From NCBI GenBank assembly GCA_003226295.1, contig CP029803.1, positions 354,226 to 418,225 on the forward strand: DNA of 64,000 nucleotides, written 5' to 3'. Under the pieces are notes generated by a model. The model was not told the origin of the DNA. It searched no databases and worked only from the letters and a program-made list of their open reading frames with translations. This stretch comes from Candidatus Moanabacter tarae. Lineage in GTDB: Bacteria > Verrucomicrobiota > Verrucomicrobiia > Opitutales > UBA2987. Of this stretch, positions 2,154 through 30,682 are shown in pieces; positions within the stretch are counted from its first letter, which is position 1; every line of letters starts with the position of its first letter. Made by a program: the position numbers and the translations under genes.

Positions 2154-2434
2154 AGTGTGAAAGCTTTCATTTATCTAGGATTTGTGATCACAGTCGATCA
2201 GAAAGAAGATTTTAAAGTGCCAAACTAAGGGTAGTCTCGCATTTTCAACGGCGCGTAATCTGGAATCGGATAACAAAGGGGATGATCCCATCCCGCATCC
2301 ACAGTAAATCGAGACAATTTTAGGCGAGGATTGCAAGATTAGCATTCAGAGTAAAAAGCCTAGAACCTTTTAATTTTCTGATGTTTTTTTGTTTTCTCGC
2401 CTGTAAAAACGGTATCGAATGCTTGTAATAAAAC

Positions 2435-7093: not shown

Positions 7094-7160
7094 AAGCTCT
7101 TGATCAGATGAAAAATAGAGAACCTTCTTAGTCGTGATCTTCCTAGTTGTAAAGATCAGA

Positions 7161-10100
7161 TTATAGCCGCAGTTTAGACAGAAAGGTTCGAATTTCTCGA
7201 AGTCTTGGGAGGGGTGAGTTTTTAGTCAGTCGAGGAAACCTCCCGTTGATTTTGATGAAAGTCTCGCGTTGAATTGAGGATCTGTGACACTTTAGCCGGT
7301 CCCCTTCTGTTTCGACGGTAAGGATGCCATTAAGTTCTGCCAGACAACGAATTTCTGTAACTAAAAGAAGGGCCTTGATCGGCTTGGGAATGGGACCAAA
7401 TCGATCTACGAGAGCCTCCTGTATTTCTTTGATATCGGACGGGTTGACAGAAATAGCGAGTTGCCGGTAAAAATCGATACGGAGGCGGGTCTCAGGAACA
7501 TAGGTCGAAGGGATATAAGCCTCAATATTTCCAATTCGGGAATCCCCCAATTCCTCCTCCTTTATTACAGCAAAACCTGGGGATAGGTTGCCTTTTTCTT
7601 TCTTTTCGTCTGTCCCAACATTTATGAAGTCAAGACGAAGGTTTGTGCGGATGATCTTGGCAGATTTTTTCCCTTTTAGTCGGGCGATACTCTGTCTTAA
7701 TAGGTGACAGTAAAGTTCGAAACCGACGCCGGAGATGTGGCCGCTCTGTTGGGCCCCCAGTAGATTTCCGGCCCCACGGAGTTCTAAATCCCGCATCGCG
7801 ATTTTATAACCAGCACCTAGCTGGGTGTATTGTCGGAGAGCGGAAAGACGCTTCCGAGCTTGGTCGATCAACTCGGTATGCCGGTGTAGGAGGAGGTAGG
7901 CATAAGCCTGCTTCTTGAAGCGACCTACTCTGCCTCGAAGCTGGTAGAGCTGGGAGAGCCCGAAACGATCTGCGCCTTCGATGATAATTGTATTGCAGTT
8001 TGGAATATCAAGACCGGACTCGATGATAGTGGTACAAACCAGGACATCAAATTCTCCTGCCACGAAACGAGTCATGATGTTTTCCAAATCTCGTTCTTCC
8101 ATTTGGCCGTGGCCCACCGCGATACGTAAATCGGGGAGCAGTTCTCTGAGATGATTAGCAACGGAATCAATTGAATCTACTCGGTTGTGGAGGTAGAAGA
8201 CTTGTCCACCACGGGCTACTTCAAAGGAGATTGACTTCTTGACGATCTCAACGCTGTAGCTCTTGACATCTGTCTTGATAGGAAGCCGATCTGAAGGCGG
8301 GGTTTCGATAACACTGAGATCGCGGGCACCCATGAGGGCGAGATAAAGAGTCCGGGGGATGGGTGTCGCACTCATTGTCATAACATCCACATTATGTTTA
8401 AGTCGCTTGAGCTTTTCCTTGTGTCGTACCCCGAATCGGTGCTCCTCGTCGATCACAAGGAGTCCGAGATTGTTGAAATGGATATCTCGTCCGAGAAGAC
8501 GATGGGTGCCGATAATCACATCGACACCTCCTGAGCGCATTTGAGATAAGATTGCTTTTTGTTGGTTCCTGGTCCGAAAACGGCTGATCATTTCAACGAC
8601 AATGGGAAAATCTGCCATACGCTCGCGAAAAGTATTAAAATGCTGTTGGGCCAAAACAGTTGTTGGGACGAGTATCGCTACTTGCCGTCCATCCATTACC
8701 ATTTTAAATGCGGCTCTAATGGCGACTTCTGTCTTCCCGAAACCGACATCGCCACAGATTAGCCGGTCAACCGGTTTAGGGAGTTCAAGATCGTGCTTTA
8801 TATCTTCGATCGCTCTAAGCTGATCTGGAGTCTCTCGGTAAATGAATGCATGCTCAAATTCCTTTTGCCAGTTAGTGTCGGGACTACAGGCATGCCCCTT
8901 AATGAGATTTCTTTGAGCTTGAAGGTTGAGAAGTTTGGCTGCGAAATCGAGAGTCGCTTTCTCTGCCGCACGACGGGTCTTGTCCCAAATATTGGTCCCA
9001 AGCCGAGCCAGTTTTGGCCTGACCTTAGTTAAGCCGACATAACGGGTAAGTAGGTGAGACTCGCTCAGAGGAAGATGCAGGGTAATCCCTCCATCAAACT
9101 CAAGTGAGAGGACTTCTTCTTCTATACCTTTAAGCTTCATTTTAGAGAGGCCCCGATAAGCGCATATGCCGTGCTGTATATGAACGATCATATCGCCCTC
9201 TACGAGTTCAGAGAAGTCGAGTAACTGGTCTACTTGAGAGCGATTGGGGAGTGCTCTGTTCGTCGATCCAGTCAAATGTTTCCTATAACGCCCGAAGATT
9301 TCAGAGTCGCTGACGACAACAAGACCGATTTTATCATTATCCTGGGACCACGCGATTGTATCAGCAGAATCCCGAAAACTAATGCGGAACCCTTTCCTCA
9401 GATTTCCTCTCCGAAAAATAGGAGAAATATTTTGTAGGTGTTCATTCTTAGCGATGATTTCAGTTAGGCGTTCTTCGACGCCTCGGTTTGGAGTAACAAG
9501 GAAAACAACGTAACCTTCATTCTTCCACTGAAGGATTTTTCCTAAAAATTGACTCCTCGCTTCTTGTTCAGAATGCAACCGATCGACTCCAATCTCCCAC
9601 TCGAAATTATAGGTCCGATAGCCGGTTAATGGTTCCGTGCAGAAAACTTCCTTTTTGCCCTTGGTCGCTAAAACAGGATTCGTAATTTCGAATTCCGACA
9701 CTGCGTACCAAAGATCATTACGTTGCGACCTAGAATCGAGTAGATCCTGAAAATTAGGTACTGCGGAATGGTTTCCCTCGGAGGAGCTAAAAAACGAGGG
9801 AAATTCCGAGAAGAGATGTTCTGGTTCCCATAGTATCCAATTAATCGAATCCCCCAGGTAATCATAAATATTTTGTTCCCGGGTCTGTGAACGCCCGTAA
9901 GGGACGGACATTATTGTGAGGCTTTCAACCTCACTAAGAGAGCGTTGAGTTGTTGGATCATAGGTCCTTATGGATTCGATTTGATCGCCAAAAAAATCGA
10001 TACGGTAAGGCTGATTAGCATTAACCGGGTAGAGATCGATTAATCCACCACGAATGGCAAATTGGCCCGGTGTCTCACAGATCGCCTCGGAGTCGTATTT

Positions 10101-14385: not shown

Positions 14386-14663
14386 GGGGAACGATGTTCA
14401 TTGGAATCCGAATTCCTTTCTAAGACCTGTTGGAGGCTTTGTCGAAGTTAATCCGGTCGGATTGGCGAGTGCACCTTTCTGGTTCGTGGAAGTTTGATCG
14501 ATTTTAAGGCTCCACTTTTTTCGCCTCAAAAGGGAGATTCTGGTTCTTTCCAAAGACAAATAACCGAGGTCGGGCATAAAGGCGAGACCCCTAGTTTCAT
14601 GTAAGTGTTACCTCTATGACGAGAACGGTTGAAGATTTACGGAAATTTTGTCTTAGTCATAAC

Positions 14664-15533
14664 ATGATAAATTCGAAGAAACAGACTTTTTTTCAGATTG
14701 GGGCTGTCCTATTAGTAACGGGAATGTTAATGGGTTGTCTCCAAGCGCCAGATGAAAAACACTACGAGATTAAGGGCGAGGTAATCTCGATTTATTCGCT
14801 AAACAATGAGATTACGATTAGGCACGAGGAAATTCCCGGATTTATGCCGGCTATGACAATGCCGTTCAAAGTTAAAAATGTGCGGATCCTGGAAGGTCTA
14901 ATCCCGGGGGACAGAGTGCGCGGAACATTTGTCGTTGCAGCCCATGAGAGTTATCTGACTGATTTGACCCGTGAAGGATCAGATGGAGCAGACCTGCCCG
15001 CAATTGTATTACCTAATGGAGTAAGACTGATTCAAAAAGGAGATACGATTCCGGAAATAGCATTTCTGGATGATAATAATCGGCAAACAAAACTCTCGGA
15101 CTTCTTGGGAAGTCCGCTGGCCTTGACCTTCATCTACACACGTTGCCCCATCCCTAATTTCTGTCCATTGATGGATAGAAATTTTATTAAGGTACAAGCA
15201 GCAATCAAGGAGGGTGTTCAACTTTCTCGAGATACTCAGTTGCTCTCGATTACATTTGATCCAGAACATGACACGGTGGAGGTCTTGCGAAGGCATTCGG
15301 CGAAGCTTGGAGCAGATGTGAAAATTTGGCGATTTTTAACCGGGGACAAGGAAGCAATTACCCATTTGGGAGAGCAGTTAGGTATCACAATTGTTAGAGA
15401 TAGCATGGGAACATCGGAGATCACTCATTCGCTCCGCACTATTGTCGTCGACCGGGAAGGGAAAGTAGCAAGAAACTTTCGAGGTAACGACTGGACCCCA
15501 GATGAGTTGATTAAGGAGCTTAGCAAATTATAG
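14664..15533 (+). CDS. SCO1/SenC copper chaperone lipoprotein with N-terminal CusF-like domain
   Basis: A membrane-anchored copper chaperone predicted to help assemble the CuA site of cytochrome c oxidase. Counting from the upstream ATG at 14616, a lipobox (GMLMGC) puts the lipidated Cys at 41. I prefer the ATG at 14664, which places a basic-hydrophobic 24-residue signal just before it. A small copper-binding domain follows, with methionine-rich MPAMTMPF, as in CusF-like domains fused to SCO. The thioredoxin-like SCO domain has YTRCPIPNFC (Cys177/Cys183, a CX5C spacing instead of the usual CX3C) and the distal ligand His271. It is separated from the cox operon by about 14 kb, but the function fits. 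Confidence 0.88.
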   Translation: MINSKKQTFFQIGAVLLVTGMLMGCLQAPDEKHYEIKGEVISIYSLNNEITIRHEEIPGFMPAMTMPFKVKNVRILEGLIPGDRVRGTFVVAAHESYLTDLTREGSDGADLPAIVLPNGVRLIQKGDTIPEIAFLDDNNRQTKLSDFLGSPLALTFIYTRCPIPNFCPLMDRNFIKVQAAIKEGVQLSRDTQLLSITFDPEHDTVEVLRRHSAKLGADVKIWRFLTGDKEAITHLGEQLGITIVRDSMGTSEITHSLRTIVVDREGKVARNFRGNDWTPDELIKELSKL

Positions 15534-16078: not shown

Positions 16079-16942
16079 ATGAAATCCTATTTTGACCTAG
16101 AAGGCGACGGGGGCTCAGATGTGATTGGTCAAGTGGTTTCTCAAAAAGAGAAAATTGCCGACCGTCTCTCAGGTGTGAGCAACCTTCTGCCGATTGCTTC
16201 GGGGAAGGGCGGTGTCGGGAAGAGCACTATAAGTATGCAATTAGCGGCCTCCCTAAATCAATTGGGAAAGAAGGTTTCATTGCTGGACGCCGACCTTAAT
16301 GGACCTACCCTTGCTCGTTTATCGGGACTTCGTGAGGTGGCATTGGTTCCCGGTAAGACCGGATTAATTGTGCCGGAAACCAAATCGGGAATTGGTGTCA
16401 TTTCCCTCGGTTCAGTTATTCCTGAGACCGACATGGTTGAATTCGAGAGTGTGGCGCAAGGGGATTCACATGTCTGGAGGGCAGCAAAAGAATTTGCCAC
16501 ACTAGCTGATATAATTGGAGCTACAGACTGGGGATGTTTAGACTTTCTCTTGGTAGACCTTCCTCCCGGGCCTGAGCGGTGTTTCCAATTTGCAGAATTC
16601 TTTGAAAATAAAGCTTCTTTTGTAATGGTCTCAATTCCTTCAGAGATTTCTCAGGGAGTTGTAAATCGTTCCGTAGCGGCGATACGACAAGCTGGATCAT
16701 CGATTACAGGTTATATTGAAAACATGTCCGGGTACTACTGCGCTGAAACGGAAGAGATGAAGCCACTTTTCCCGGCAGGTAATTTCCCAATTGATGTTCC
16801 TTTGTTGGGCAAAATTCCATTTGATCCCGAACTGGCTCAGTGTTGTGATAAGGGAATGACAGTTTCAGATATTCCCGACTCCCGAACTGCTAAAGTGCTA
16901 CGCGATATTGCGGTTCTAATTGTCAACGAAATGGATAAATAA
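16079..16942 (+). CDS. Mrp/NBP35-like P-loop ATPase
   Basis: A 287-residue SIMIBI-class ATPase of the Mrp/NifH/MinD superfamily. The deviant Walker A SGKGGVGKST spans 41-50, the Walker A' region is LLDADLNGPTLAR, and Walker B is FLLVDLPPG (156-164). Mrp proteins normally act as Fe-S cluster carriers. Here the usual PPGTGD is replaced by PPGPERC, and ENMSGYYC keeps only one cysteine of the family's CxxC. Cysteines 153, 168, 221, 255 and 256 remain available. No N-terminal MIP18/FeS-assembly domain is present. It is followed after 17 bases by a zinc-ribbon/PCP_red protein and heads a four-gene cluster. Family clear, role uncertain. Confidence 0.85.
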   Translation: MKSYFDLEGDGGSDVIGQVVSQKEKIADRLSGVSNLLPIASGKGGVGKSTISMQLAASLNQLGKKVSLLDADLNGPTLARLSGLREVALVPGKTGLIVPETKSGIGVISLGSVIPETDMVEFESVAQGDSHVWRAAKEFATLADIIGATDWGCLDFLLVDLPPGPERCFQFAEFFENKASFVMVSIPSEISQGVVNRSVAAIRQAGSSITGYIENMSGYYCAETEEMKPLFPAGNFPIDVPLLGKIPFDPELAQCCDKGMTVSDIPDSRTAKVLRDIAVLIVNEMDK

Positions 16943-16959
16943 CGCGAAGGGTTTAAAGT

Positions 16960-17478
16960 ATGAGATTCCTCTGTGTCAGTTGCGATACCCAAATGAACCT
17001 GCTCAAGAATGATGAAGGAGTGGTTCCAGATGAACGTGGTTCTCTTTCCTTGCAATACGAGTGTCCCGATTGTTTGGTCCAGATCGCTATGTTGACGAAT
17101 CCCTTTGAGACTCAGATGGTCTCTTCCCTGGGTGTTGAGATTGGCGGGAAAACTCTTTCTGAAGGCGAGGGTATCGTAATTGACGAAACGGGAGAGGCGG
17201 TTGGAGTTAAGCCGGTTTCAGCTTCCGAAGAGTCGGGTAAATGTCCCTTTTCTCAGGAAGCGAGAAGAGCACTCGGTGCGTCTTCCGAAAGAACGGAATC
17301 CTCTCAGGTGAATGCTGAGATAAAGTGGACTGCGCAAGCTCTGGTGCGTCTTAAAAATATCCCAGAGTTTGTCAGACCTATGGCAAAGCAGGGAATCGAA
17401 AGGTACGCAATTGAGCAAGGCTATACCCAGGTTAACGAGGAATGCTTGGCATCAGCAAAGGAGCATTTTGGGATGTGA
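16960..17478 (+). CDS. Zinc-ribbon protein with C-terminal PCP_red domain
   Basis: A 172-residue protein in two parts. The N-terminus has a treble-cysteine ribbon (Cys5-x2-Cys8 and Cys35-x2-Cys38) likely to bind zinc or iron. Residues 121-169 match the PCP_red domain (begins IKWTAQALVRL, with IPEFVRP and the later IERYA), the module at the C-terminus of the BchB/ChlB subunit of dark protochlorophyllide reductase. The linker has one more Cys (GKCPF, 95). It lies 17 bases behind the Mrp-like gene, so they are probably co-transcribed. Two hairpins follow its stop (17503-17556). The reaction is unknown; the PCP_red match is by recognition of the conserved pattern. Confidence 0.8.
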   Translation: MRFLCVSCDTQMNLLKNDEGVVPDERGSLSLQYECPDCLVQIAMLTNPFETQMVSSLGVEIGGKTLSEGEGIVIDETGEAVGVKPVSASEESGKCPFSQEARRALGASSERTESSQVNAEIKWTAQALVRLKNIPEFVRPMAKQGIERYAIEQGYTQVNEECLASAKEHFGM

Positions 17479-17502
17479 TTCTAAGAATCTGAAGGAAGTT
17501 TC

Positions 17503-17525
17503 AGGTGTGTAAGATGTAGACACCT
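17503..17525 (+). other. Inverted repeat after the zinc-ribbon/PCP_red gene
   Basis: A perfect 6-bp stem (aggtgt at 17503-17508, acacct at 17520-17525) with an 11-base loop, a few bases upstream of a second, terminator-like hairpin. Together they sit between the second and third genes of the PCP_red cluster. Confidence 0.4.
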
Positions 17526-17531
17526 CCGACA

Positions 17532-17556
17532 GCTCCTTCCCCGGAGCACTTTTTTT
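17532..17556 (+). terminator. Terminator-like hairpin inside the PCP_red cluster
   Basis: A 5-bp GC-rich stem (gctcc 17532-17536, ggagc 17543-17547) is followed by seven T at 17550-17556. It stands 22 bases before the radical SAM start codon, so it may separate or attenuate transcription between the Mrp pair and the radical SAM gene. Confidence 0.5.
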
Positions 17557-17577
17557 CAAAGAAAAGATTTTTGAATA

Positions 17578-18978
17578 ATGAGATCTCTCCCTGGAAATGC
17601 GCACGTCCCTGACGATTGTGAGCAAACCGATTCAATCGGGGAAAAGGAATCTAAACCCTTTGCCTATTCCCGCCCTTACGTTATTTCCTGGAATTTGACG
17701 AATCGCTGCAATTTGAAATGTCAACACTGTTACCTGGATGCAGGAGCAAAAAGCGTTCAGCGTCTGAAAGAGGGAGGTTTTGCCGATCGTACTGAAATGG
17801 GGACGGAAGATTGTTTTCAAGTAATTGATCAGATTGCCTCATTTGCACCAGAAGCGCTCACCATTTTGACAGGTGGAGAGCCATTGTTACGCCCGGATAT
17901 CTTAGATATCATTCGATATGCAAAAGAGCATGATCTGTGGACAGTATGCGGGACCAACGGAGTTCTAATCACTGAAAACCTGGCAGGGCTTTTACAGGAA
18001 AATGGGTTACGGGGACTGTCCCTTTCCCTGGATTCACTAGATCCATCTGGCCACGACCGCTTTCGTGGTGTTAAGGGCGCGTGGAAGAACACGGTAAATG
18101 GTGCCAAGATACTTAACAAAACCGGACTCTCATTCATCGTTCAGACAACTGTGGGTAAACATAATCTTGGCGAAATTTCTTCTATTGCCGATTTTGCTCA
18201 TTCCGAAATGGGAGCAAAGGTTTTTAACCTTTATTTTCTAGTATCCACAGGTCGCGGTCAGTTTGTTTCCGACATTTCAAGTGAAGAATACAAACGGGTG
18301 TTGGTCGAGCTCTCTCAGATTCAGCGAAAGTTTGATGGCGAAATGGTAACCAATGCCAAGTGCGCTCCTCACTACTTCAGGCATCTTTTTGAAGAAGAAC
18401 CGGGTTCTAAATTCTTGAAATCGTTTTCCGGTGGTGCAGGAGGGTGTCCGGCTGGAACCCATTACATGGGAATTCGTCCTAATGGTGACATGACTCCTTG
18501 TCCTTATCTGCCCCTCTATGGAGGCAATCTGAGAGAAAAACCAATGCTCGAAATTTGGAACGAATCGGATCTTTTCCGGACTATTCGTAAACGGAATCAG
18601 TTGGGGGATCGATGCGGTGAATGTGAGTTTAATCCGCGGTGTGGGGGATGTCGAGCGAGGGCTTTCGGTAGTAATGGTGACTTCATGGCAGAAGACCCCC
18701 TTTGCGATTATTCTCCAGGGAAGTATTCTCAGGATCAGATAGGAGTTGGGTCAGGGATTGAATATGGCCTTCCTTTTTCATTTAGTGAATCGGATGAGGT
18801 TCAATGGGAACTAGCTGCTCAGGAACGAATGAAACGCATTCCTGCCTTTGTCCGAGGGATGGTGAAACGATCGGTCGAGAAATACTGTCGCGAGCATGGG
18901 TTGAGTAGGGTAACGCCCGACGTGTTGACGGATATTCGAAAACGGATGCCGACGCCGAAGATTTTTGGGGAGCGATAG
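17578..18978 (+). CDS. Radical SAM/SPASM enzyme with C-terminal PCP_red domain
   Basis: A 466-residue radical S-adenosylmethionine enzyme. The [4Fe-4S] motif is Cys44-x3-Cys48-x2-Cys51 in NRCNLKCQHC, followed by the SAM-binding GGEP segment (LTGGEPLLR). A SPASM-type auxiliary cluster domain is seen in CPAGTHYMGIRPNGD, TPCPYLP and CGECEFNPRCGGC. This layout resembles haem-pathway enzymes AhbD/NirJ, which modify propionates of tetrapyrroles, but also peptide-maturing SPASM enzymes. Residues 408-457 add a PCP_red domain (VQWELAAQERM, IPAFVRG, VEKYC). It lies between two other PCP_red proteins. Radical SAM chemistry is confident; a tetrapyrrole substrate is inference from the PCP_red partner and the respiratory neighbours. 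Confidence 0.88.
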   Translation: MRSLPGNAHVPDDCEQTDSIGEKESKPFAYSRPYVISWNLTNRCNLKCQHCYLDAGAKSVQRLKEGGFADRTEMGTEDCFQVIDQIASFAPEALTILTGGEPLLRPDILDIIRYAKEHDLWTVCGTNGVLITENLAGLLQENGLRGLSLSLDSLDPSGHDRFRGVKGAWKNTVNGAKILNKTGLSFIVQTTVGKHNLGEISSIADFAHSEMGAKVFNLYFLVSTGRGQFVSDISSEEYKRVLVELSQIQRKFDGEMVTNAKCAPHYFRHLFEEEPGSKFLKSFSGGAGGCPAGTHYMGIRPNGDMTPCPYLPLYGGNLREKPMLEIWNESDLFRTIRKRNQLGDRCGECEFNPRCGGCRARAFGSNGDFMAEDPLCDYSPGKYSQDQIGVGSGIEYGLPFSFSESDEVQWELAAQERMKRIPAFVRGMVKRSVEKYCREHGLSRVTPDVLTDIRKRMPTPKIFGER

Positions 18979-19298
18979 GCCCCAATAGGTATAGGAATGA
19001 ATGAAATTACAATCTCCCATCAGTGGGACTATAACTAATCCGACGGGTGTGTTGATGGAAGGAGAGTGGCCGAGACTGTTTTATAGGGATTCTCTCTTGA
19101 TATGTTCAATGCATTTTATCTAACAATTGATCGTAGAAGGAGGCGATGCTCTTCGCTACGAAAATTGCAGGCTTCATAAAATTAGACGAATACGCGGAAA
19201 ATTCCTCGACGTAGCGCTGACCATTTGCCAGATTCGCCCAGTGAAGGCTCTTATAAACAGTTAGGGGTATTAAAACCGAAGAATCCTAAATTTACAGT
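18979..19298. other. Intergenic region before the Usp/PCP_red gene
   Basis: About 320 bases with no credible ORF. A 14-base stretch at 19061-19074 resembles the 5' end of tRNA-Ser, but no cloverleaf follows. No clear promoter was identified, though the length suggests the Usp/PCP_red gene has its own. Confidence 0.4.
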
Positions 19299-21395
19299 AT
19301 GTACAAAAAAATACTTGTCCCAGTAGATAACTCTGAATTCTCGAATCACGCTATTCAGGTAGGAATTGAGATTGGCAAGAGGTATGACTCTGAATTAACA
19401 GGCAATCATGTTTATGCGGCGAAGATGCATGATTACCGGTTCAAGCAAATGGAGTTCACGTTACCGGACGAATATTTGCAGGAAACGGAGTTAGAGAGGC
19501 AAAGGAAAATTCATGATAGTCTCATAACGATGGGACTTAAGCTGATTTCCGATTGCTATCTTAACGAGATGGACGAGCAATGTCGTGATGCCGGCTTGTC
19601 TTTAGAAAAGAAGATGATGGATGGGAAGCACCATGTGGAAATCCTTAAGGACATGGCGGCTTCTTGTTACGATCTAACAGTCATAGGCATAAAGGGTATT
19701 GGTAAGACAAAAGACAGTCAGATCGGATCTGTCTGTCAGCAGGTGGCAACAAATGCAAAGGGCGATGTTTGGGTCGTAAAGCATGTTGAAGGGGAGAATG
19801 GGTCGGTAAGGGATTCCATCCTGGTAGGAATCGATGGAAGTCCTCAGTCCTTTGGCGGTCTAATGACGGCGATTGATCTTGCGAAGAAGATGGGCAAAAA
19901 GCTGACACTGATCAGTGTATATGATCCCTATCTTCACTATATGGTATTCAACGGCATCGTCGATGTTTTGACTGAAAAAGCGGCAAAAGTATTCCGATTC
20001 GAAGAACAGAATCAACTTCACGAGGAGATAATCGATACTGGCTTGGCGCAGATTTACCAGTCCCATCTGGATGTTGCTGGAAGTATGGCGAAAGATGAAG
20101 GATTGGAAGTAGAAAAGGTTCTTCTTGACGGAAAGGCTTATCAAAAAATTCTGGATCATATACGTAAAAATCCACCCTGGGTTTTGGTTATGGGCCGGAT
20201 AGGGGTCCACGCAGAGAATGAGACGGCGGGCCTCGGTAGTAATTCTGAAAATCTATTGAGGATGGCTCCTTGCGATGTGCTGCTTACTTCTAAACAGGTG
20301 TATCCAAAACTGGATGTGAAGGCTGAGGAGAGCATCTCTTGGACTCCGGAGGCGGAAAACAGGATGACGCGAGTCCCTCGGCTAGTTAAAGGGATTGCTC
20401 GCACGGCCATACTACGTCTTGCGGTAGAGCAGGGCCATAGCGTTGTCACTAATTCGTTAATCGATGAAGCGATGGATCGGTTTATGCCAAAGTCGGCGGC
20501 CGAAGCCACGAAAGATCTGGCAGAGACGATTGCTTTTGAAAAAGCAAGTAAGGGGGATGCTGCTATCTGCAACCATTGTGGTACAACCGCTTCGGAGGAG
20601 GACCCTGTGAAATGTGCTATTTGCGGAGAGCGCGATTTTCAGAAAGTCACGGTCGAAATGGTTGACAAAATCATCGCTTCAGAGGGGGGATCTAAGGAGG
20701 AATCCTCATATGATGGCCGCAAGCTTAGGTGGACCAGTGATGCGAGAGGGCTTCTTCCGGCAATACAGGACAATTATCAGAAGCGGCGGGCAAAGGCCTA
20801 TATAGAAAAAGCGGCAAGGATGCGTAAACTCAATGCTGTGACATTAGAATTCGCTGAAAAAATCCTCACCGAACTAGGCCATGAAGAGAGTATAGCCGAG
20901 TATGCAGAGAAGAATGATCGGGACGGTGGAACGGTAGAGGAAGAGGAAATTCACGATTCAGGATTGAAGTTAATTGTAAGAGACAAGGGTAATGTACCGT
21001 TGAGATCTGTGTTTTCCTGGACCGATGATGCTGCAGAGCGGATTTTGCGAGTGCCGGCTGGTTTCATGCGGGACAGAGTTCAGGGGAAAGTAGAAAATAT
21101 GGCCCTCGATGAAAAGATTTTAGAGATCAATCTAGAACTTGTGGAAAAGGGTATATCGGCCGGAAGGCAAATGATGGAAGAGATGCTTGCTTCTGCGGGT
21201 CTTTCGAAAGATTCGAATGGAGTAGATAGTAGTAACGGATCGAACTATAAAAATGGTTCTGATGATAAAGTGGATGCAACACCGGTTTACGCTGATATCA
21301 GTATTAACGACTACCCTACGAATTCTCCACCAAAACGGATGATGAATGAGGAGGGAGTGATGAGCGAGCTCGACAAGAAGAGATCTGCACTATAG
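19299..21395 (+). CDS. Tandem universal stress protein with three PCP_red domains and a zinc ribbon
   Basis: A 698-residue multidomain protein. Two universal stress protein domains (about 1-165 and 172-335; the second keeps a glycine-rich MGRIGVHAENETAGLGSNS nucleotide-loop-like segment) are followed by PCP_red copy 1 (346-396, ISWTPEAENRM), a zinc ribbon (Cys424, 427, 439, 442), PCP_red copy 2 (476-525, LRWTSDARG, the most degenerate) and copy 3 (571-620, FSWTDDAAERI). The tail (around 635-655) is rich in Ser, Asn and Gly. Usp domains bind ATP or small ligands; PCP_red is otherwise known from BchB/ChlB. No transmembrane segment, so cytosolic. It closes the PCP_red cluster. The combination suggests a scaffold or sensor; no specific activity is claimed. 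Confidence 0.85.
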   Translation: MYKKILVPVDNSEFSNHAIQVGIEIGKRYDSELTGNHVYAAKMHDYRFKQMEFTLPDEYLQETELERQRKIHDSLITMGLKLISDCYLNEMDEQCRDAGLSLEKKMMDGKHHVEILKDMAASCYDLTVIGIKGIGKTKDSQIGSVCQQVATNAKGDVWVVKHVEGENGSVRDSILVGIDGSPQSFGGLMTAIDLAKKMGKKLTLISVYDPYLHYMVFNGIVDVLTEKAAKVFRFEEQNQLHEEIIDTGLAQIYQSHLDVAGSMAKDEGLEVEKVLLDGKAYQKILDHIRKNPPWVLVMGRIGVHAENETAGLGSNSENLLRMAPCDVLLTSKQVYPKLDVKAEESISWTPEAENRMTRVPRLVKGIARTAILRLAVEQGHSVVTNSLIDEAMDRFMPKSAAEATKDLAETIAFEKASKGDAAICNHCGTTASEEDPVKCAICGERDFQKVTVEMVDKIIASEGGSKEESSYDGRKLRWTSDARGLLPAIQDNYQKRRAKAYIEKAARMRKLNAVTLEFAEKILTELGHEESIAEYAEKNDRDGGTVEEEEIHDSGLKLIVRDKGNVPLRSVFSWTDDAAERILRVPAGFMRDRVQGKVENMALDEKILEINLELVEKGISAGRQMMEEMLASAGLSKDSNGVDSSNGSNYKNGSDDKVDATPVYADISINDYPTNSPPKRMMNEEGVMSELDKKRSAL

Positions 21396-21692: not shown

Positions 21693-22580
21693 ATGCCTTC
21701 ATTCCGCTTCTGCCGTCCTGATGACTCGTCTCTTCTTATTGAGGCGACTAATCAGGCTTTCAATATCCACTTCCCGAGGCTTGTCCCTATCACAGAGGAA
21801 AAGTTCAAACGTGAAATCAAAGAGCTCGATCTGTGGACGAGTTCTTGTGTATTGGCTTCTGAAGATGGAAAACCGATCGGTGTTTTGATCGCAGCCAAGA
21901 GAGAGGAAGCAGCAACGATCCTGAGGTTGGGGGTTGTTCCGAGATTCCAGGGACATGGCTATGGGAGTCACTTGGTAGCTTCTTTGAAAGACAAGATGAG
22001 TGTATTGGGGCCAGCACTTCTGACGGTTGAAATTACGGAAAACCAGGCTGGACTTATTACTTTCTTCCAGAAGCTCGGGTTCGAGTTGGAAGATGAATAT
22101 TATGATTTTATGTTTCAATCTGAACTTGAAGAATCTTCATTACCAGAGCTTGTTTCAGAAATAGGAGTTGACGATTTAGGAAGTCGTTTTCTCCATAGCT
22201 CTGACGGAGAATTCCAAGTAGGAGAGGGATTTTTAGCGTGGATGCGACAGACCCAGACCATCATTAATCAAAAAAATTCTGTTCGAGGCCTTGGTATCCC
22301 TGATCTCGATGGATTCGCAGCCTATCTTTACTATCGGGAAATTCAGGGATCAGGTGCATGTGAGGGTGGGAGCTACGTTGAGATCGTAGCAATTGGTTGT
22401 CGTATAAGGGAGAAAGCAACAATCCTCTGTGGGATTTTAATTCGTTACCTATTGTCACAAATCCAATCCAGGATCTTAGTACCCAGACTATCTAAATCAG
22501 AGATTTCATATGATATTTTAGAAGAAATTGGATTCGTTCGGGGCGCAAGAATACTCAGGTATGGTGTTGGTATCCAGTAA
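21693..22580 (+). CDS. GNAT family N-acetyltransferase
   Basis: A 295-residue protein with a GNAT domain in its first half (about 1-150). The acetyl-CoA pyrophosphate loop is recognisable as VVPRFQGHGYGSHL, and the downstream FFQKLGF helix-strand is typical. The second half has no recognised family; it may be a degenerate second GNAT copy, as in tandem GNAT proteins (EIGFVRGARI near the end resembles the motif B region). The acceptor substrate is unknown. The preceding 300 bases hold no gene. Confidence 0.8.
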   Translation: MPSFRFCRPDDSSLLIEATNQAFNIHFPRLVPITEEKFKREIKELDLWTSSCVLASEDGKPIGVLIAAKREEAATILRLGVVPRFQGHGYGSHLVASLKDKMSVLGPALLTVEITENQAGLITFFQKLGFELEDEYYDFMFQSELEESSLPELVSEIGVDDLGSRFLHSSDGEFQVGEGFLAWMRQTQTIINQKNSVRGLGIPDLDGFAAYLYYREIQGSGACEGGSYVEIVAIGCRIREKATILCGILIRYLLSQIQSRILVPRLSKSEISYDILEEIGFVRGARILRYGVGIQ

Positions 22581-23426: not shown

Positions 23427-25268
23427 TCAAACTGTTTGGGGAGTAGCGAGATCTTCGGATCGAGCGCGCCAGCGGATGAAGGCGATAAGGATGATTTCTA
23501 TAATGACTGTTAAAATTGCGTATTTAGCCATTGGCACGATAGGAGAGACAGTTTGTTTTGGTTTGAGGAAAATGGAGTACCACGAGGAAAGTCCCGTTTT
23601 GATTCCATGTTCACGATTAAAGCCGTCCCAAACAAAGAAGGAAATTGGAATAAATACGCCTTCTGCAAATGACAGGCCATCGGGTTGTTCTCGTTTTTGT
23701 TTGAAGGTTACGGCCCATTCTCCGGCATCGTAGGTAGCAGTCATGGAAGTTCCGGTTAATTCCTTTGCCTGAATGCCGGCGTAGCCATTGCCAATGAACT
23801 GTCTAAGTTCGCCGTTACCGGCCAAATCAGCGTACCAAAGATCAACTGATCTTTGAGGATCGCCAAAAACGAAAAAGGGTTTTTTGAAGCCCTCAGGCAT
23901 AGCGGTGGGCCATTGAATGGCAACCGCATCGGAGTATTGCTCTGAGGTTTCGTCATGATGCGCAACACTTTGGGGAACGGTGTCTTCCACAGGCAGACCA
24001 GGGGCGTTGCTACCTGAGCGATCGGCCGACATGTCATTCCAGGTCACAAGAATAGCTATTTCATCTGTATTGTAAATGGCTCGCACTTCGATGGAATTGG
24101 TAGCCGGGAAATACTCGCGTCCCGGCTCGATGAGCTGACCCACTATGGGAATGTGGGCAGTTAGAGCATTCCCAAAGAGGGACTGGTCATTGGAAATATC
24201 AAAATCCCTTTCGACGTAATCCGCCACGATAGTGGTAGAGAAATCAGAGTCGACGCGTTTTGAGAGAGAAACGATATAATTGACTAAGTCCCAGCGGTCT
24301 TGTTCAGACATGGAGTCCTGATATGAGGGCATAGGAGTTCCGTTGATTCCAGTTGTAACGGTGCGATAAATGTCTTCGCGGGTGGATCCACCTCGAAAGG
24401 CCCAGCGCTTGGTCAGGTCGGCGGGCCGTATGGGGTTCTTTTCATCTCCAAAATCGTCTTCCAGAGTCGGTGCAGAAACGCCGTCAGTTCGTCCAAGGTC
24501 CCCATGGCATGTATAGCACTCATTCTGGACATAAATTTCACGTCCTCTCAGGGCTGATTCCTCAGAAAATTCAGGAGCCTTTCCCAATGTTAAAGGTATT
24601 GGGCTGAAGTCTGGATCTGCGAAGTCAGCATTAAAGGTCTTTAGGTAATAGGCAAGATTTGTGATCTCTTCATCACTAAGATTGGTAAAAGGAGGCATCC
24701 CAGTGAAAGGCATCCCTTTCTGGATAATATGCTTAATATCTTCCGTCGTCGGCAGTTCTCCGCTCGGCGTAGTCCGGATTTTGTACTTTCCACTAGTAAA
24801 GTCCCTTGGTTTAGGTCGGAAAAAGGCTTCTGCTGAACCTTTCCCGTCTCCTTCATTGCCGTGACAGTGAGCACAGTAATTTTGATAGAGTTCTTTTCCT
24901 TCAGCCCGTTGGGTCTCGGAGCCGAGATCAAGGGATTGAGCTAGAAGGGAAGAGGAAGTGAGACACAGAGTGCTGAATTGCCAAACAAGAAACTTTCGGA
25001 ACAAAAGCTGGAAGGAGTAGAAAATGGGAATATGATGGAACCAGATTTTTAATTTACCACCTCGATTATCTCGAAGAGTTTTAGGTAAAGAAAAAAGATA
25101 ACGGAAGAATGCGAATATAAACAAGTTAGAGTTAAACCCCTCGCCTGTGTTACCCTGATCTGAAGGAATACCAGGACCCTGACAGGCAGCTTTGGTAATC
25201 TCAAAGTTACAGATCCGCCGTAAGCGTCCCGCCAGCTGACGGTGAAACGAATTCAGTCTCTCTCTCAT
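23427..25268 (-). CDS. Dihaem cytochrome c fused to ethylbenzene-dehydrogenase-type haem domain
   Basis: A 613-residue exported electron-transfer protein. Two class I cytochrome c modules carry CAHCH (Cys132/135, His136) and CYTCH (Cys251/254, His255), each followed by a late methionine ligand region. Residues about 345-590 resemble the EB_dh haem-b-binding domain of the ethylbenzene dehydrogenase gamma subunit (FGDPQRSVDLWYADL). A C-terminal transmembrane helix (about 585-605) anchors it. The ATG at 25268 is two bases after the upstream stop with AAGG before it, but the first 88 residues look unlike the family. A TTG at 25004 would place a normal signal peptide (FRKFLVWQFSTLCLTSSS) at the start. 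It is the last gene of the block. Confidence 0.82.
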   Translation of the reverse strand: MRERLNSFHRQLAGRLRRICNFEITKAACQGPGIPSDQGNTGEGFNSNLFIFAFFRYLFSLPKTLRDNRGGKLKIWFHHIPIFYSFQLLFRKFLVWQFSTLCLTSSSLLAQSLDLGSETQRAEGKELYQNYCAHCHGNEGDGKGSAEAFFRPKPRDFTSGKYKIRTTPSGELPTTEDIKHIIQKGMPFTGMPPFTNLSDEEITNLAYYLKTFNADFADPDFSPIPLTLGKAPEFSEESALRGREIYVQNECYTCHGDLGRTDGVSAPTLEDDFGDEKNPIRPADLTKRWAFRGGSTREDIYRTVTTGINGTPMPSYQDSMSEQDRWDLVNYIVSLSKRVDSDFSTTIVADYVERDFDISNDQSLFGNALTAHIPIVGQLIEPGREYFPATNSIEVRAIYNTDEIAILVTWNDMSADRSGSNAPGLPVEDTVPQSVAHHDETSEQYSDAVAIQWPTAMPEGFKKPFFVFGDPQRSVDLWYADLAGNGELRQFIGNGYAGIQAKELTGTSMTATYDAGEWAVTFKQKREQPDGLSFAEGVFIPISFFVWDGFNREHGIKTGLSSWYSIFLKPKQTVSPIVPMAKYAILTVIIEIILIAFIRWRARSEDLATPQTV

Positions 25269-25270
25269 CC

Positions 25271-26110
25271 TTAGTGGGCCATATGCATGTCAGCCCTAGG
25301 GCTTGAATTAGTGAAATGGTAGATAAACATAATTACATCCCAGATCTCCTCTTCGGTGAGGAATTTTTCCCAGGCAGGCATGGCAGAACTCCAAGGGCCA
25401 GATTCGTCGGGGAGATCAGGCCCTCCTTTAGCTACTCGCCAGAATACGTAGTTCTCCTGGAGTTGGGAGATAGTTCCAGAATCGGCAAGATTGGCTGGGA
25501 TGGGATTGAAACCGTGAGCATAGATGCCATTACCTTCAAGTGTGTCACCGTGGCAGAATACGCAGTTGTCATAGTAGATCCTACGCCCGTTTTCGACGTG
25601 CTGAAGGAAAGCTTTGGGGTCTTCGGTTTCAAGTTTTCGATAGGGATTCTCCAACTTGGCAAGATCTACAGATTTCCCTTCATAGGAGAACTTTGATGGT
25701 GGTGCAGGATGGATGGATCGGCCAAAAACAGGAGCTACAATGTCGGTCTGCATATCCAGATAGACCTTCCATGCAACGAGTAAAGGAATTAGAAGAGTTA
25801 CTGCGATGAGGGGGATCTTAAATTTCTGGTCAACGAGGAAGCGAACAATTGGCCCCGTAGTTTCTCTGAGCTTCTGAGAGTCGGCTCCGATGTAGAAAAG
25901 TAGCGCAATAGTAATGATCCCCATAAACATCTGAATGATTGATACAGGCAGGGGAGGGGTGATAGCGTATCTGAGGATTAAAAGCATCCCGATCCACCAT
26001 ATAACGACCCAGAAGAGAGTATTCATCCATGAAAGGTTTCTCCATCTGCTGACCAAATACAGAATCAACATGGCTGAAAAAACGAGAGGGATAAATAGAA
26101 TGGTGGGCAT
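25271..26110 (-). CDS. Membrane-anchored monohaem cytochrome c
   Basis: A 279-residue protein with four N-terminal transmembrane helices (about 3-20, 31-47, 57-74, 99-117) and a periplasmic cytochrome c domain with one haem site, CVFCH (Cys183/186, His187), and a candidate axial Met in SSAMPAW. It lies six bases after the preceding cytochrome gene, with an AGGA ribosome-binding site overlapping that gap, and its stop is two bases before the next start. It probably passes electrons to or from the bd-like membrane protein encoded upstream. Confidence 0.85.
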   Translation of the reverse strand: MPTILFIPLVFSAMLILYLVSRWRNLSWMNTLFWVVIWWIGMLLILRYAITPPLPVSIIQMFMGIITIALLFYIGADSQKLRETTGPIVRFLVDQKFKIPLIAVTLLIPLLVAWKVYLDMQTDIVAPVFGRSIHPAPPSKFSYEGKSVDLAKLENPYRKLETEDPKAFLQHVENGRRIYYDNCVFCHGDTLEGNGIYAHGFNPIPANLADSGTISQLQENYVFWRVAKGGPDLPDESGPWSSAMPAWEKFLTEEEIWDVIMFIYHFTNSSPRADMHMAH

Positions 26111-26116
26111 AGGATC

Positions 26117-26953
26117 CTAATTTCCTTTTTTATCGGAGAGATAGTCCACCAGTTCTTTGAGCTGAGTTGGATTAACTTGTTCGTAGAATCCTGTTCCTCC
26201 CAAGGTGGCCATCATGAGGCCTTTCTGAAAGCCTTCGGCGATGGTAGCATCAGGATCAAGGAGGGATTCGTAGATTTCAGCTTTTGTGAGACGTGCACCT
26301 ACGTCATGTAGGGGAGGTCCAAGGAGCGTAATGTCTTGATCGAAATTATGGCAAGCTATGCATGCGTACTTCGTCAGCATTTCCTCTGCACCCAGAACAG
26401 CTGTCCCGTCCCCTGTAGTAGGATCAGCGGGGGCAGCAGCGGCTAGTGTTGGGTCAACAGCTGCAGGTTCGACGCCCCCACTTTCAAAGTACTTAAGCTT
26501 TGTATTTGGAGAAACCGAAGGAGACCCGCCCAGGCTTTGCAAGTAAGCGATGACGGCTAGGATTTCCTGTTCAGTCAGATTGATGGGAGCCTTGTTGGCC
26601 GGAGTCATGATTGGATTGTAGCCCTCTACAACGTACTTCATCGGTTCGTAAAGAGATTCAGCAAGGTACTCTACATCGTTTAAACTATCAATACGTTCGG
26701 CGGCACGTTGACCGATACCGGCTAAGTCTGGAGCACGGGCCCCGTGCGAACCAACCGTGTGACAGAGGAAGCAAGTACCCTTACCAGAAGCAATTTCGCT
26801 TCCAGCTTCTACCATCTCTTGCATACTCATGTCGGAGCGGATTTCGGTACTCTCCGGGGGATAGGTTTCTTTCTGAGGAACCTGTTGGCCAACATACCAA
26901 TAGAAGAGAGTGGTTAATACGGTGAGAGCAATGATTTTTAGAAGATTAATCAT
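26117..26953 (-). CDS. Dihaem cytochrome c with N-terminal membrane anchor
   Basis: A 278-residue protein: one N-terminal transmembrane helix (about 4-20), then two cytochrome c domains with CFLCH (Cys61/64, His65) and CIACH (Cys198/201, His202), joined by an Ala/Pro-rich linker (about 160-180). Its ATG overlaps the stop codon of the bd-like gene (ATGA, 26950-26953), so translation is coupled. It is the likely immediate redox partner of the bd-like protein. Confidence 0.87.
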   Translation of the reverse strand: MINLLKIIALTVLTTLFYWYVGQQVPQKETYPPESTEIRSDMSMQEMVEAGSEIASGKGTCFLCHTVGSHGARAPDLAGIGQRAAERIDSLNDVEYLAESLYEPMKYVVEGYNPIMTPANKAPINLTEQEILAVIAYLQSLGGSPSVSPNTKLKYFESGGVEPAAVDPTLAAAAPADPTTGDGTAVLGAEEMLTKYACIACHNFDQDITLLGPPLHDVGARLTKAEIYESLLDPDATIAEGFQKGLMMATLGGTGFYEQVNPTQLKELVDYLSDKKGN

Positions 26954-28821
26954 GCTGCTTTAGGAGGCTCCCAGTCTCGTTTATTGTGGAGGTCTGCAAG
27001 CCAGAAATTAACCATAATAAACGCAAAAAAGATCAAAACAATGATGGAAACGATGGTGCTGGCAAATCCCAGGGTCGGAGTAAAAGCATCTACTGAAGTG
27101 TCTTGCATAACTTCGTAGACATGCCAGTGAAGCCGCAGGCCCGAGCGCACATATCCCATCAAACCCATGAGCCAGGTAAAAGTTACAGCGAGAAAGAAAA
27201 GCATATATTGTGCACGATTTGAAATCCTTCCCCAGCGAATTTTCCCTACTTCAGGAGCTTTTCTAAATATAACAATATCCATCGCGGTAGCCATAAGCAA
27301 AACCATAAATACGGAGGAGACCTGAAGAACGGAATAGCCAATTCGCACTGTTGCTTCAACAAAGTAACCGTCGATTCCATACCAAATAACGATTGCTGCC
27401 GAGAGAGCAAAAAGGAGGATCTGGCCAATTATTCCACGGCTCCGGAAGGTCAGAGCCAAAGCGACAAATATACCTACCGCACTAACAAGGAACAGTATCA
27501 TATGACCGCGAGCTGCTTGTAGAGCATAAAGTAGAACAAGTGTAAAAACAGCTACGATTGGAAGCGAAAGTTGCGCAAGACTGCTCTGTTGGTAGAAGGG
27601 GATGGGGGTTCCCTTGTTGCCTCGACGGTAGAGGAGGAAGCTCAAATAGGTAGTGAGAATCAAAATATTAACAGCCGTATTTTTAGCTGACATCACTCCA
27701 AGGATACCTAGGACTGGATGGTGCGCTCCTCCCATTTGTCTTTGTTCCTGAACTGAGGCAACAAGGGAGTGGGGGGTGGCCCATACTATGAAGCAGATGG
27801 TAACCAGGGCCAGAAGGTACTTGATGTATTTATTATAGCGTTCGGCACCCTCAATTCGCTCCATCCCCAGCCAGAGATAAAAATTTGCACCGAGAAAAAG
27901 CATTCCGATCAAAACCGCTTGGATAATAAAGAGCCAGGAGAAGGCGCCACCCATTAGGACCATTCCCATTTGGGCACGGAATGCATATATTTCGCTTCCC
28001 AGCCAATAACCGGCAAAGGGAAGTGGGAGAAGGGCGCAGATGGCGATAAAATTTCCGATATAGCCCATCCAGTCATAATGAGCCCTCTCCTCTTCGGTAC
28101 GGGAGCTAAGAAATTTGAACCCAGCGTAAGCGGCTGCGATCGATCCTCCAAGGCAAAGGTTGGCGATCAATCGATGAATGTTAATTGGCATCCAGGTGTA
28201 ATTATTTACTGCTTGCCAGGTGCTGACAAGGTTCCCCGATTCATCGATGCCGCTGGGCGACATCATAAATGAGAGCCAGGCATTTGCGATGAACATGATG
28301 ATAGTGCCGACAATATTGAGACATAGCCCAAGGAAGAGATGCACACGGGGCGAGAATTTGCCCCAGCCGTAGTAGTAGCTGTAAAGGAAGGCAGCTTCGG
28401 CGAAAAAGAGAAGACCATAAGGCCAGAAAGTTGAATCGAATATAGTAACAAGGTAGTTGGTGAATCTCGGATAGAGGATCATCAACATGAAGGTGAGCAG
28501 GGCACCTAACGTGGCCGTAAAAGAAAATGAAACTGTTAGGAGACTAGTAAACTCGTGAGCGAGTTTGTCGTAGCGTTTATCACCCGTTTTGTAACCGATG
28601 AATTCGATTAGGAGAGCGAACATAGGAACTGCTAGGACAAAGGCGGCGTACATCAAGTGAAGTTCGCCAATTGCCCATATCGCGACGCGGCTGCCGATTT
28701 TCGGGAAAGCTCGATAATCGACGTTAGTAGCTTCCTCCGATTGCCCAAGTAAGTCACTCGCAGCAAGAAGAAGAGCAATTAGGGGAAGCCAGCGGATGAG
28801 AAATTGAAAAGGTCGGCTCAA
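26950..28821 (-). CDS. Cytochrome bd-like integral membrane protein
   Basis: A 623-residue protein with an N-terminal hydrophobic leader and some 14 transmembrane helices. The first part resembles cytochrome bd oxidase subunit I: an early histidine in GELHLMYAAF and a later haem-b-like histidine in MPINIHRLIANLCLGGS. It is longer than CydA, and no CydB follows; three cytochromes c follow instead. This matches the putative bd-like oxidases described from Nitrospira genomes (established knowledge), which are proposed to take electrons from cytochrome c. The start is TTG at 28821; an in-frame stop lies five codons upstream, and no ATG fits. The activity (oxygen reduction or another quinol/cytochrome reaction) is not settled. 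Confidence 0.8.
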   Translation of the reverse strand: MSRPFQFLIRWLPLIALLLAASDLLGQSEEATNVDYRAFPKIGSRVAIWAIGELHLMYAAFVLAVPMFALLIEFIGYKTGDKRYDKLAHEFTSLLTVSFSFTATLGALLTFMLMILYPRFTNYLVTIFDSTFWPYGLLFFAEAAFLYSYYYGWGKFSPRVHLFLGLCLNIVGTIIMFIANAWLSFMMSPSGIDESGNLVSTWQAVNNYTWMPINIHRLIANLCLGGSIAAAYAGFKFLSSRTEEERAHYDWMGYIGNFIAICALLPLPFAGYWLGSEIYAFRAQMGMVLMGGAFSWLFIIQAVLIGMLFLGANFYLWLGMERIEGAERYNKYIKYLLALVTICFIVWATPHSLVASVQEQRQMGGAHHPVLGILGVMSAKNTAVNILILTTYLSFLLYRRGNKGTPIPFYQQSSLAQLSLPIVAVFTLVLLYALQAARGHMILFLVSAVGIFVALALTFRSRGIIGQILLFALSAAIVIWYGIDGYFVEATVRIGYSVLQVSSVFMVLLMATAMDIVIFRKAPEVGKIRWGRISNRAQYMLFFLAVTFTWLMGLMGYVRSGLRLHWHVYEVMQDTSVDAFTPTLGFASTIVSIIVLIFFAFIMVNFWLADLHNKRDWEPPKAA

Positions 28822-29023: not shown

Positions 29024-29812
29024 TTACCAAGAATCGTCGGCATCTCCAGCGGTGAGTGATTTAGCAACTTCTTTGGCCATCCAACTAGCGAAACTATTCT
29101 CCGACTGTACTTCTATAAACCCCCGCATTGTAGAGTGCCCGTTCCCACACAGTTGACTGCAGGCAATAAGATACTTGCCTTCTTTGACGGCCTTAAAGGT
29201 AACGGGAATAGTTACCCCAGGAATAGCGTCTTGTTTTACCCGCATGGCTGGTATACCAAGGCTATGAATGACATCCTTCGACGAGAGGTGTACGATCACA
29301 TCATTATCGACAGGAAGATAAAGTCTTTTTGCTATCACATCATCTTTCCCGTTGGGATCATCAGGATCTAGTCCTAAGATGTTGGTCTCAAGATCGATAA
29401 GCTCTGGTTTGGTGCCACCAAACACCCCGTCAGTTCCCGGGTAATGGTAACTCCAGGTGAATTGTTCTGCCACCATCCGCACAACCACAGAATCCGCTTC
29501 TTCAGGGAAATCGTCAGTCCACTGGGCCCAAAGAGGAATAGAGAACCCGGCGAGGAGAATAACTTCTGCAACGATCACCCCGACCTCAGTGAGAGAACTC
29601 AATTTGGTCTTAGTCCCTTCGTAACTAGCCTTTGGGTTTCTGGACCTATGAAACCGGAATAGGACGAAGATAAAGTAGATACTCCACCCTACAAAGAGTA
29701 GCAGTGCAAGTAGGTGAAGAAGCCAATTTAGGTGGTCCAGGGCGGCTCCGTGCTCCGAGACATCAATGGGCATCCAAGGAAACCCAAAGAAACGCATCAT
29801 CGGTTGTTCCAT
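29024..29812 (-). CDS. coxB: Cytochrome c oxidase subunit II (CuA)
   Basis: A 262-residue subunit that accepts electrons from cytochrome c at the binuclear CuA centre. Two transmembrane helices (about 28-53, 75-97) precede the periplasmic cupredoxin domain. CuA ligands are His183, Cys218, Cys222, His226 and Met229 in CSQLCGNGHSTM; the usual glutamate between the cysteines is Gln220 here. The aromatic patch FTWSYHYPG is near the family's WxWxFxYP. No cytochrome c domain is fused. Its ATG overlaps the stop of the preceding small gene by one base (TAATG). About 200 bases separate it from the bd-like gene. Confidence 0.94.
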   Translation of the reverse strand: MEQPMMRFFGFPWMPIDVSEHGAALDHLNWLLHLLALLLFVGWSIYFIFVLFRFHRSRNPKASYEGTKTKLSSLTEVGVIVAEVILLAGFSIPLWAQWTDDFPEEADSVVVRMVAEQFTWSYHYPGTDGVFGGTKPELIDLETNILGLDPDDPNGKDDVIAKRLYLPVDNDVIVHLSSKDVIHSLGIPAMRVKQDAIPGVTIPVTFKAVKEGKYLIACSQLCGNGHSTMRGFIEVQSENSFASWMAKEVAKSLTAGDADDSW

Positions 29813-30099
29813 TACAGTTCTCCTGATGGTTGGGTGTTCTTTACGTCAATTCTTGTAATTGGATTAGAGATTTTGACGAGTTTTGATTGTCGCCAAAGAT
29901 AGATGAAGAAAGAGGCGAAGCCAGCCAGCACAGCAGCAGTTACGCATAGAAGAAAGATAAGAGCCATATTCAAGCCATTGGCGAGATTTCCGGTTACCTT
30001 CCCAAAGCAGCTGGTACAGGCAGCAAGAGAATTTACTGATAGAAACAGAAAGGCAATAGGAAGAAACCGCATTGAGATTCTCGAATAAAAGAGGCTCAT
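29812..30099 (-). CDS. Small membrane protein of the cox operon
   Basis: A 95-residue protein with an N-terminal signal-like hydrophobic segment (RFLPIAFLFLSVNSLAACTSC) and a second transmembrane helix (about 45-70). Cysteines in ACTSC could be a lipobox or a metal site. It is embedded between coxD/60-aa and coxB with overlapping stop/start, so it is surely part of the operon. I do not recognise a named family; an oxidase accessory or copper-related subunit is a guess from position. Confidence 0.65.
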   Translation of the reverse strand: MSLFYSRISMRFLPIAFLFLSVNSLAACTSCFGKVTGNLANGLNMALIFLLCVTAAVLAGFASFFIYLWRQSKLVKISNPITRIDVKNTQPSGEL

Positions 30100-30278
30100 A
30101 GATTCTGTATCTTTTTGAGGAAGTAATTACCGTAAAAGAAAAGACCAAGACCGGCTGCGAAAGAGGCGAAGCCAAGAATGAGGTAGGGGCCCGCCTGTTT
30201 AACAGACCACCAGCCAAATACGAAGCAGAGAACCACTGCTAGGGTGATAAAGCAAACATGGAAAATCTTAAGTGACAT
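30096..30278 (-). CDS. 60-residue membrane protein of the cox operon
   Basis: Two transmembrane helices (about 5-22, 30-53) in a 60-residue protein starting MSLKIFHVCF. A longer frame to 30401 would overlap coxD, so I use the ATG at 30278, which follows the coxD stop by 20 bases. Its 3' end overlaps the start of the next small gene by four bases. It is probably a small oxidase-associated subunit; family not recognised. Confidence 0.6.
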   Translation of the reverse strand: MSLKIFHVCFITLAVVLCFVFGWWSVKQAGPYLILGFASFAAGLGLFFYGNYFLKKIQNL

Positions 30279-30298
30279 TGTGAAGAAGTTACTCTGTC

Positions 30299-30616: not shown

Positions 30617-30682
30617 GTTTTGTCCTACTCTGGATTGTATGAATTTGCCTCTAGTCGAGGTTTAGCGACTTCTACCTGTAGT

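Follow-up and report, generated by a model that had tools for sequence, protein, structure and literature searches.

The 64,000-nucleotide stretch of Candidatus Moanabacter tarae analysed here (contig CP029803.1, positions 354,226 to 418,225; hereafter the window) carries a cluster of four open reading frames (ORFs), all on the forward strand. They encode a Mrp-type ATPase, a zinc-ribbon protein (ZnR-PCP), a radical SAM/SPASM enzyme (rSAM-PCP) and a double-Usp protein (Usp-PCP), of which the last three bear the PCP_red domain. We found that this four-gene set is linked to a divergent cytochrome bd-like complex, a link that is the firm outcome of the analysis. As the set and such a complex occur together in three phyla, the four proteins are probably helpers devoted to its construction or modification. 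Our preferred reading, to which we give a probability of roughly 0.42, is that they form a cytoplasmic maturation kit for the neighbouring bd-like complex, with rSAM-PCP acting on haem or porphyrin; family resemblance and the other proteins that share the domain suggest both the maturation role and the haem target. The cluster consists of the following features:

16079-16942, forward: Mrp/NUBPL-type P-loop ATPase of the Fe-S carrier family (PF10609, 171 bits; Walker A SGKGGVGKS; no CxxC, the second cysteine being missing)
16960-17478, forward: ZnR-PCP, zinc-ribbon protein with a C-terminal PCP_red (PF08369, 54.6 bits, residues 123-167)
17326-17460, forward: PCP_red of ZnR-PCP (from the genome search, place 371551-371685 minus the offset of 354225)
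17578-18978, forward: rSAM-PCP, radical SAM/SPASM enzyme of the AhbD/NirJ2 haem group with a C-terminal PCP_red (NirJ2 293 bits, AhbD 289 bits, cysteine conservation)
18805-18936, forward: PCP_red of rSAM-PCP (PF08369 profile, protein and genome searches)
19299-21395, forward: Usp-PCP, double Usp followed by a PCP_red, a CxxC zinc-ribbon/rubredoxin-like piece and two further PCP_red (Usp 126.8 bits; PCP_red 76.3 bits over three stretches)
20340-20471, forward: PCP_red copy 1 of Usp-PCP (43 bits, genome search)
20724-20873, forward: PCP_red copy 2 of Usp-PCP, degenerate (weak; one of the three stretches of the protein search, not found alone in the genome search)
21018-21146, forward: PCP_red copy 3 of Usp-PCP (35.4 bits, genome search)

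All three PCP_red proteins exceeded the PF08369 cut-off of 32.5 bits, rSAM-PCP with 53.5 bits (residues 410-453) and Usp-PCP with its best stretch at residues 348-391, and they are thus members of the family. The original prediction had counted five copies in these proteins. Four of them were clear, while the fifth, in the middle of Usp-PCP (residues ~476-525), retains W-T-x-x-A, lacks the P-x-F motif and matched weakly. The other domains it had named, Radical_SAM with SPASM, the double Usp and the ParA/NUBPL (Mrp-type) ATPase, were borne out by profile matches. In a six-frame search of the whole 2.63 Mb genome, PCP_red passed the cut-off at four places, each of them inside the cluster, and no copy of BchB type was detected. 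The nitrogenase-like Oxidored_nitro core was absent from all four proteins in a profile scan, which sets them apart from dark-operative protochlorophyllide reductase. The proposal that PCP_red has been reused here outside BchB therefore holds, as the only copies detected in the genome are those of this cluster. Among 14 control genomes, one, the cyanobacterium Synechococcus elongatus, carried the domain.

The bd-like block and the cytochrome c oxidase genes lie beside the cluster on the opposite strand:

23427-25268, reverse: cytochrome c with an EB_dh domain, resembling alt-NxrC (homologs in most of loci L108-L116, L120 and L125)
25271-26110, reverse: cytochrome c of the bd-like block (cytc2)
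26117-26953, reverse: cytochrome c of the bd-like block (cytc3)
26950-28821, reverse: divergent cytochrome bd-like subunit (PF01654, 88.5 bits)
29024-33082, reverse: cytochrome c oxidase genes (COX2 29024-29812, COX3 30683-31282, COX1 31283-33082)

The likeness of the bd-like subunit to CydA is confined to the N-terminal half. Its match covers positions 12-237 of the 418 of the PF01654 profile, so that it falls outside canonical cytochrome bd. H55 and H216, its two haem-ligand positions, were invariant in all eight aligned proteins.

Co-occurrence was counted in genomes hand-picked by their PCP_red status from the Chloroflexota and Desulfobacterota match lists; Chloroflexota genomes with only BchB-like matches or only single weak matches of ~500 residues were excluded. 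We called a bd-like gene divergent when its PF01654 match was partial and far under canonical CydA (30-105 bits in Chloroflexota and 40-105 bits in Desulfobacterota). Such a gene was present in 27 of the 28 Chloroflexota genomes with non-phototrophic PCP_red, the exception being G357, versus none of the 20 without any PCP_red (p ~1e-12). The Desulfobacterota counts were 16/18 for genomes with the Usp/rSAM type of PCP_red versus 2/32 for the others (p ~4e-9; exceptions G616 and G735), both p-values overstating the evidence because genomes within each phylum are related. A few Desulfobacterota genomes without the Usp/rSAM type showed weaker partial PF01654 matches.

The association was also one of position. 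In 20 fetched loci and in a second verrucomicrobial genome, the bd-like gene was 0-7.5 kb away from the nearest Usp-PCP or rSAM-PCP gene. Several of the loci in which no bd-like gene was seen were short contigs, which does not apply to L111, L115, L121 and L059. The presence of rSAM-PCP followed the subtype of the bd-like neighbour: where this neighbour scored 296-966 bits against the window protein, 12 of the 13 loci contained rSAM-PCP, which in the genome of the thirteenth (L116) is on another contig (L115); where it scored 72-121 bits, rSAM-PCP was found in none of eight loci, which had Usp-PCP alone. Thus, where neighbourhoods could be read, rSAM-PCP accompanies no bd-like subunit but that of the window type, and Usp-PCP was found with all bd-like subtypes sampled, whether rSAM-PCP was there or not. 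Among the loci of the rSAM-PCP type, those of Desulfobacterota and Verrucomicrobiota contained the EB_dh-cytochrome, cytc2 and cytc3, whereas none of these could be recognised in the three from Chloroflexota. In one Usp-only Chloroflexota locus (L068), cytochrome b and Rieske protein genes adjoin the two bd-like genes. The original prediction that the cluster may serve the adjacent cytochrome and oxidase block is therefore modified, the link being with the divergent bd-like complex; as for the oxidase, haem-copper cox genes were adjacent in the two Verrucomicrobiota and one Chloroflexota contig.

The second verrucomicrobial genome, Verrucomicrobia bacterium Opi.OSU.00C (PNEW01000010.1), belongs to the same order and another family. 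It keeps the arrangement of the window with 59-70% identity and a gene order conserved on both sides: SCO1-CusF, a small membrane protein, Mrp, ZnR-PCP, rSAM-PCP, Usp-PCP, GNAT, cytochromes c, bd-like, COX2 and COX3. The flanking genes with conserved synteny are, in the window:

14616-15533, forward: CusF and SCO1 copper-assembly protein
21693-22580, forward: GNAT acetyltransferase

When the genome collection was scanned with two peptide patterns from the radical SAM alignment, four loci were returned. On a Chloroflexota contig, the end of a Mrp gene is followed by ZnR-PCP, by rSAM-PCP (52% identical over the matched part) and by COX2-COX1-COX3-SCO1, and a Usp with three PCP_red is on a separate contig. 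Desulfobacterota loci typically pair Usp-PCP and rSAM-PCP beside the bd-like, cytc3, cytc2 and EB_dh-cytochrome c genes, and L125 has in a single line bd-like, cytc3, cytc2, EB_dh-cytochrome, Usp (on which no PCP_red was detected), Mrp, ZnR-PCP and a contig-truncated rSAM. The Mrp-ZnR-PCP pair was thus found again in Chloroflexota and Desulfobacterota, with orthologs of ZnR-PCP in L013, L016/L028, L117, L118 and L125. The expected co-occurrence of the cluster genes was accordingly seen outside this genome and outside its phylum, with bd-like and cytochrome genes alongside, and chance clustering of the four genes was rejected, as the arrangement is conserved elsewhere. Four of the 145 genomes sampled from the phylum of the window contained PCP_red, namely the window genome, two HutW fusions and one sub-threshold match. 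PF08369 matched in 65 of 350 Chloroflexota genomes, many with the strong BchB-like match of ~550 residues expected of phototrophs; for the phylum to which a Desulfuromonadales record belongs the count was 89 of 297 genomes, and for an archaeal phylum 0 of 200.

The radical SAM enzyme has the CxxxCxxC motif and SPASM cysteines of a SPASM radical SAM protein (SPASM 41.8 bits), with 11 cysteines invariant among 21 homologs. NirJ2 and AhbD, which share its SPASM layout, were the top families in all four rSAM-PCP members scanned (~290-360 bits). The enzyme belongs to neither, since the equivalog cut-offs of AhbD (TIGR04545) and NirJ2 (TIGR04055) are 500 bits each, against 289 and 293 bits for the window protein and up to 361.5 bits to NirJ2 for a homolog. 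In a maximum-likelihood tree, the PCP-fused enzymes grouped together (87/90, the branch not being starred) with AhbD outside; the sole unfused sequence inside the group ends at a contig end. By these sequence comparisons rSAM-PCP is a member of the AhbD/NirJ haem group that forms a separate clade, and it differs from AhbD and NirJ2 in bearing PCP_red and in coexisting with an AhbD. The window enzyme clustered with Chloroflexota sequences, which is compatible with lateral transfer. In L108, a protein matching the AhbD model with 493.5 bits (7079-8287, reverse) directly adjoins rSAM-PCP and Usp-PCP. Next to rSAM-PCP and Usp-PCP, the loci L059 (2396-5851, forward) and L062 (41-3511, reverse) encode a protein of ~1150 residues, which in L059 matches Molybdopterin oxidoreductase and in L062 starts similarly.

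In the proposed maturation kit, rSAM-PCP would modify a haem or porphyrin destined for the window-type bd-like/EB_dh-cytochrome complex, a haem-bearing protein being a less likely target. The Mrp ATPase may supply Fe-S clusters to rSAM-PCP, the ATP-type double-Usp protein may carry or release the substrate, and PCP_red could be a common docking piece which gathers the kit proteins and perhaps the tetrapyrrole too. The domain content, the linkage and co-occurrence, the confinement of rSAM-PCP to one bd-like subtype and its separation from AhbD were observed, whereas the substrate and its conversion, the parts played by Usp and Mrp and whatever PCP_red may bind are inferred. An enzyme of the AhbD/NirJ group, together with PCP_red on HutW haem-degradation enzymes, sulfite-reductase-type siroheme domains and a haem-oxygenase-like protein, was counted in favour of a haem-directed role. 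The ATP-binding Usp motif G-2x-G-9x-G(S/T) is present in both Usp halves of the window protein, with a spacing one residue longer in the second, and in most homologs; the CxxC pairs are at residues 424 and 439. The AlphaFold model of Usp-PCP, with a predicted local distance difference test (pLDDT) score of 38, was too low to use. A bolder version, in which PCP_red serves generally to hand over tetrapyrroles and rSAM-PCP produces a hitherto undescribed modified haem solely for the window-type bd-like/EB_dh-cytochrome complex, seems doubtful.

Several observations weigh against the haem-directed kit. Related genomes are non-independent samples, and neighbourhood and co-occurrence are not biochemistry. 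The window Mrp has its Walker A and no CxxC; the second cysteine is missing in both Verrucomicrobiota, and the Desulfobacterota relatives compared (L118 and L125) keep the CxxC. Eight bd-like clusters have Usp-PCP without rSAM-PCP, thus the radical chemistry would not be general to bd-like proteins. Across 143 copies of PCP_red, three positions hardly vary, namely W (100%), P (97%) and A (96%), and no column exceeded 34% His, Cys and Met together, so haem-iron ligation by a conserved residue is unlikely; as a transporter of the MFS family carries the domain too, its pattern does not demand tetrapyrrole binding. Peptides are often the substrates of SPASM enzymes, and the closest solved structures to rSAM-PCP are PqqE and maturases of ribosomally synthesised and post-translationally modified peptides (RiPP).

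The SPASM architecture with its 11 invariant cysteines, these solved relatives and the missing haem-ligand residue of PCP_red would also suit a kit in which rSAM-PCP alters a side chain of the bd-like or a cytochrome subunit and PCP_red is for protein docking only. However, the profiles favour NirJ2/AhbD (~290 bits) over PqqE and other peptide maturases (~130 bits or less), and the cluster showed no recognisable gene for a small precursor peptide, though no search was aimed at one, so we regard a protein target as unlikely. The AlphaFold model of rSAM-PCP (mean pLDDT 52), whose fold search returned RiPP maturases, viperin and PqqE, did not discriminate. It is similarly improbable that the set senses rather than builds, with an ATP-type Usp-PCP tuning the bd-like respiratory branch by oxygen or energy state and tetrapyrroles uninvolved. 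The presence of Usp-PCP beside every bd-like subtype irrespective of rSAM-PCP, and its intact ATP motifs, fit such a role, as do four UspA proteins of Nitrospira marina, with or without PCP_red, which rise at low oxygen beside induced operons, some of them for electron transport (PMC8115632); yet it leaves the haem-type radical SAM, Mrp and zinc-ribbon partners unexplained, two of which bear PCP_red too.

Despite the AhbD likeness (289 bits), an alternative haem b synthase that replaces AhbD and feeds haem to the cytochromes is very improbable and was rejected as the main explanation. A single run of genes in the window genome contains HemF, HemE, HemH and a HemY candidate of the amine-oxidase family; ferrochelatase was found in 8 and HemQ in 6 of 10 genomes checked. 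The cluster is thus unlikely to supply ordinary haem b, because other haem genes do that; moreover, the near-cut-off AhbD stands beside rSAM-PCP in L108 and the tree sets the two apart.

The nearest published counterpart of the window block is the cluster of alt_NxrC_2, two cytochromes c and bd-like_3 described for Nitrospira, Nitrospina and anammox bacteria (PMC6606698, PMC3578206); alike are the half-CydA bd-like protein, the two cytochromes c and the NxrC/EB_dh-like cytochrome, a likeness of gene content and half-length CydA match. According to these papers, the bd-like proteins of Nitrospina and Nitrospira align with CydA in the N-terminal part only, are encoded together with two cytochromes c and one alternative NxrC and are conserved in anammox bacteria; the complexes are strongly transcribed in Nitrospira, their role being termed enigmatic or undetermined, and the passages searched mention neither PCP_red nor radical SAM partners. 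A 2025 survey files half-CydA bd-like proteins under OR-N type CydA/CydA' (PMC12342949). With this type and with canonical CydA the window protein shares the N-terminal half and the haem-ligand histidine positions, and it differs from canonical CydA in its divergent C-terminal half. Literature searches on PCP_red, radical SAM with cytochrome bd-like, and Nitrospira returned no published description of the four-gene set, most subscription journals being outside the search. As the set is tied to similar complexes in three phyla, it offers a way to ask which cofactor bd-like complexes hold and how they are built.

The distribution of PCP_red raises the question of why one small domain is shared by haem-type radical SAM enzymes and by proteins linked to protochlorophyllide, to siroheme and to haem degradation. 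Its best-known carrier is BchB/ChlB of dark-operative protochlorophyllide reductase; solved BchB C-terminal domains align, whereas the nitrogenase-like core is found there and in none of the four cluster proteins. HutW/ChuW resembles rSAM-PCP as a fusion of PCP_red and radical SAM on a haem enzyme, and differs in its radical SAM family and in the N-terminal position of PCP_red. Fusions of this HutW type were seen in two Verrucomicrobiota loci (L005, 473-2005, and L006, 1426-2979, both forward). PCP_red is also N-terminal on proteins of ~260-325 residues that combine NIR_SIR with ferredoxin (L122, 7549-8334, reverse; L066, 9691-10662, forward), and many Desulfobacterota matches were of similar length. 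A Desulfobacterota contig (L124) encodes two BchB-like nitrogenase-family proteins with C-terminal PCP_red (1455-3185 and 6144-7910, forward). The MFS transporter (L123, 7976-9523, reverse) has a C-terminal PCP_red barely over the cut-off (33.3 bits). In L119 (7762-9312, reverse), a PCP_red-rubredoxin-like-PCP_red-PCP_red cassette, in the same order as in Usp-PCP, is joined to a haem-oxygenase-like domain.

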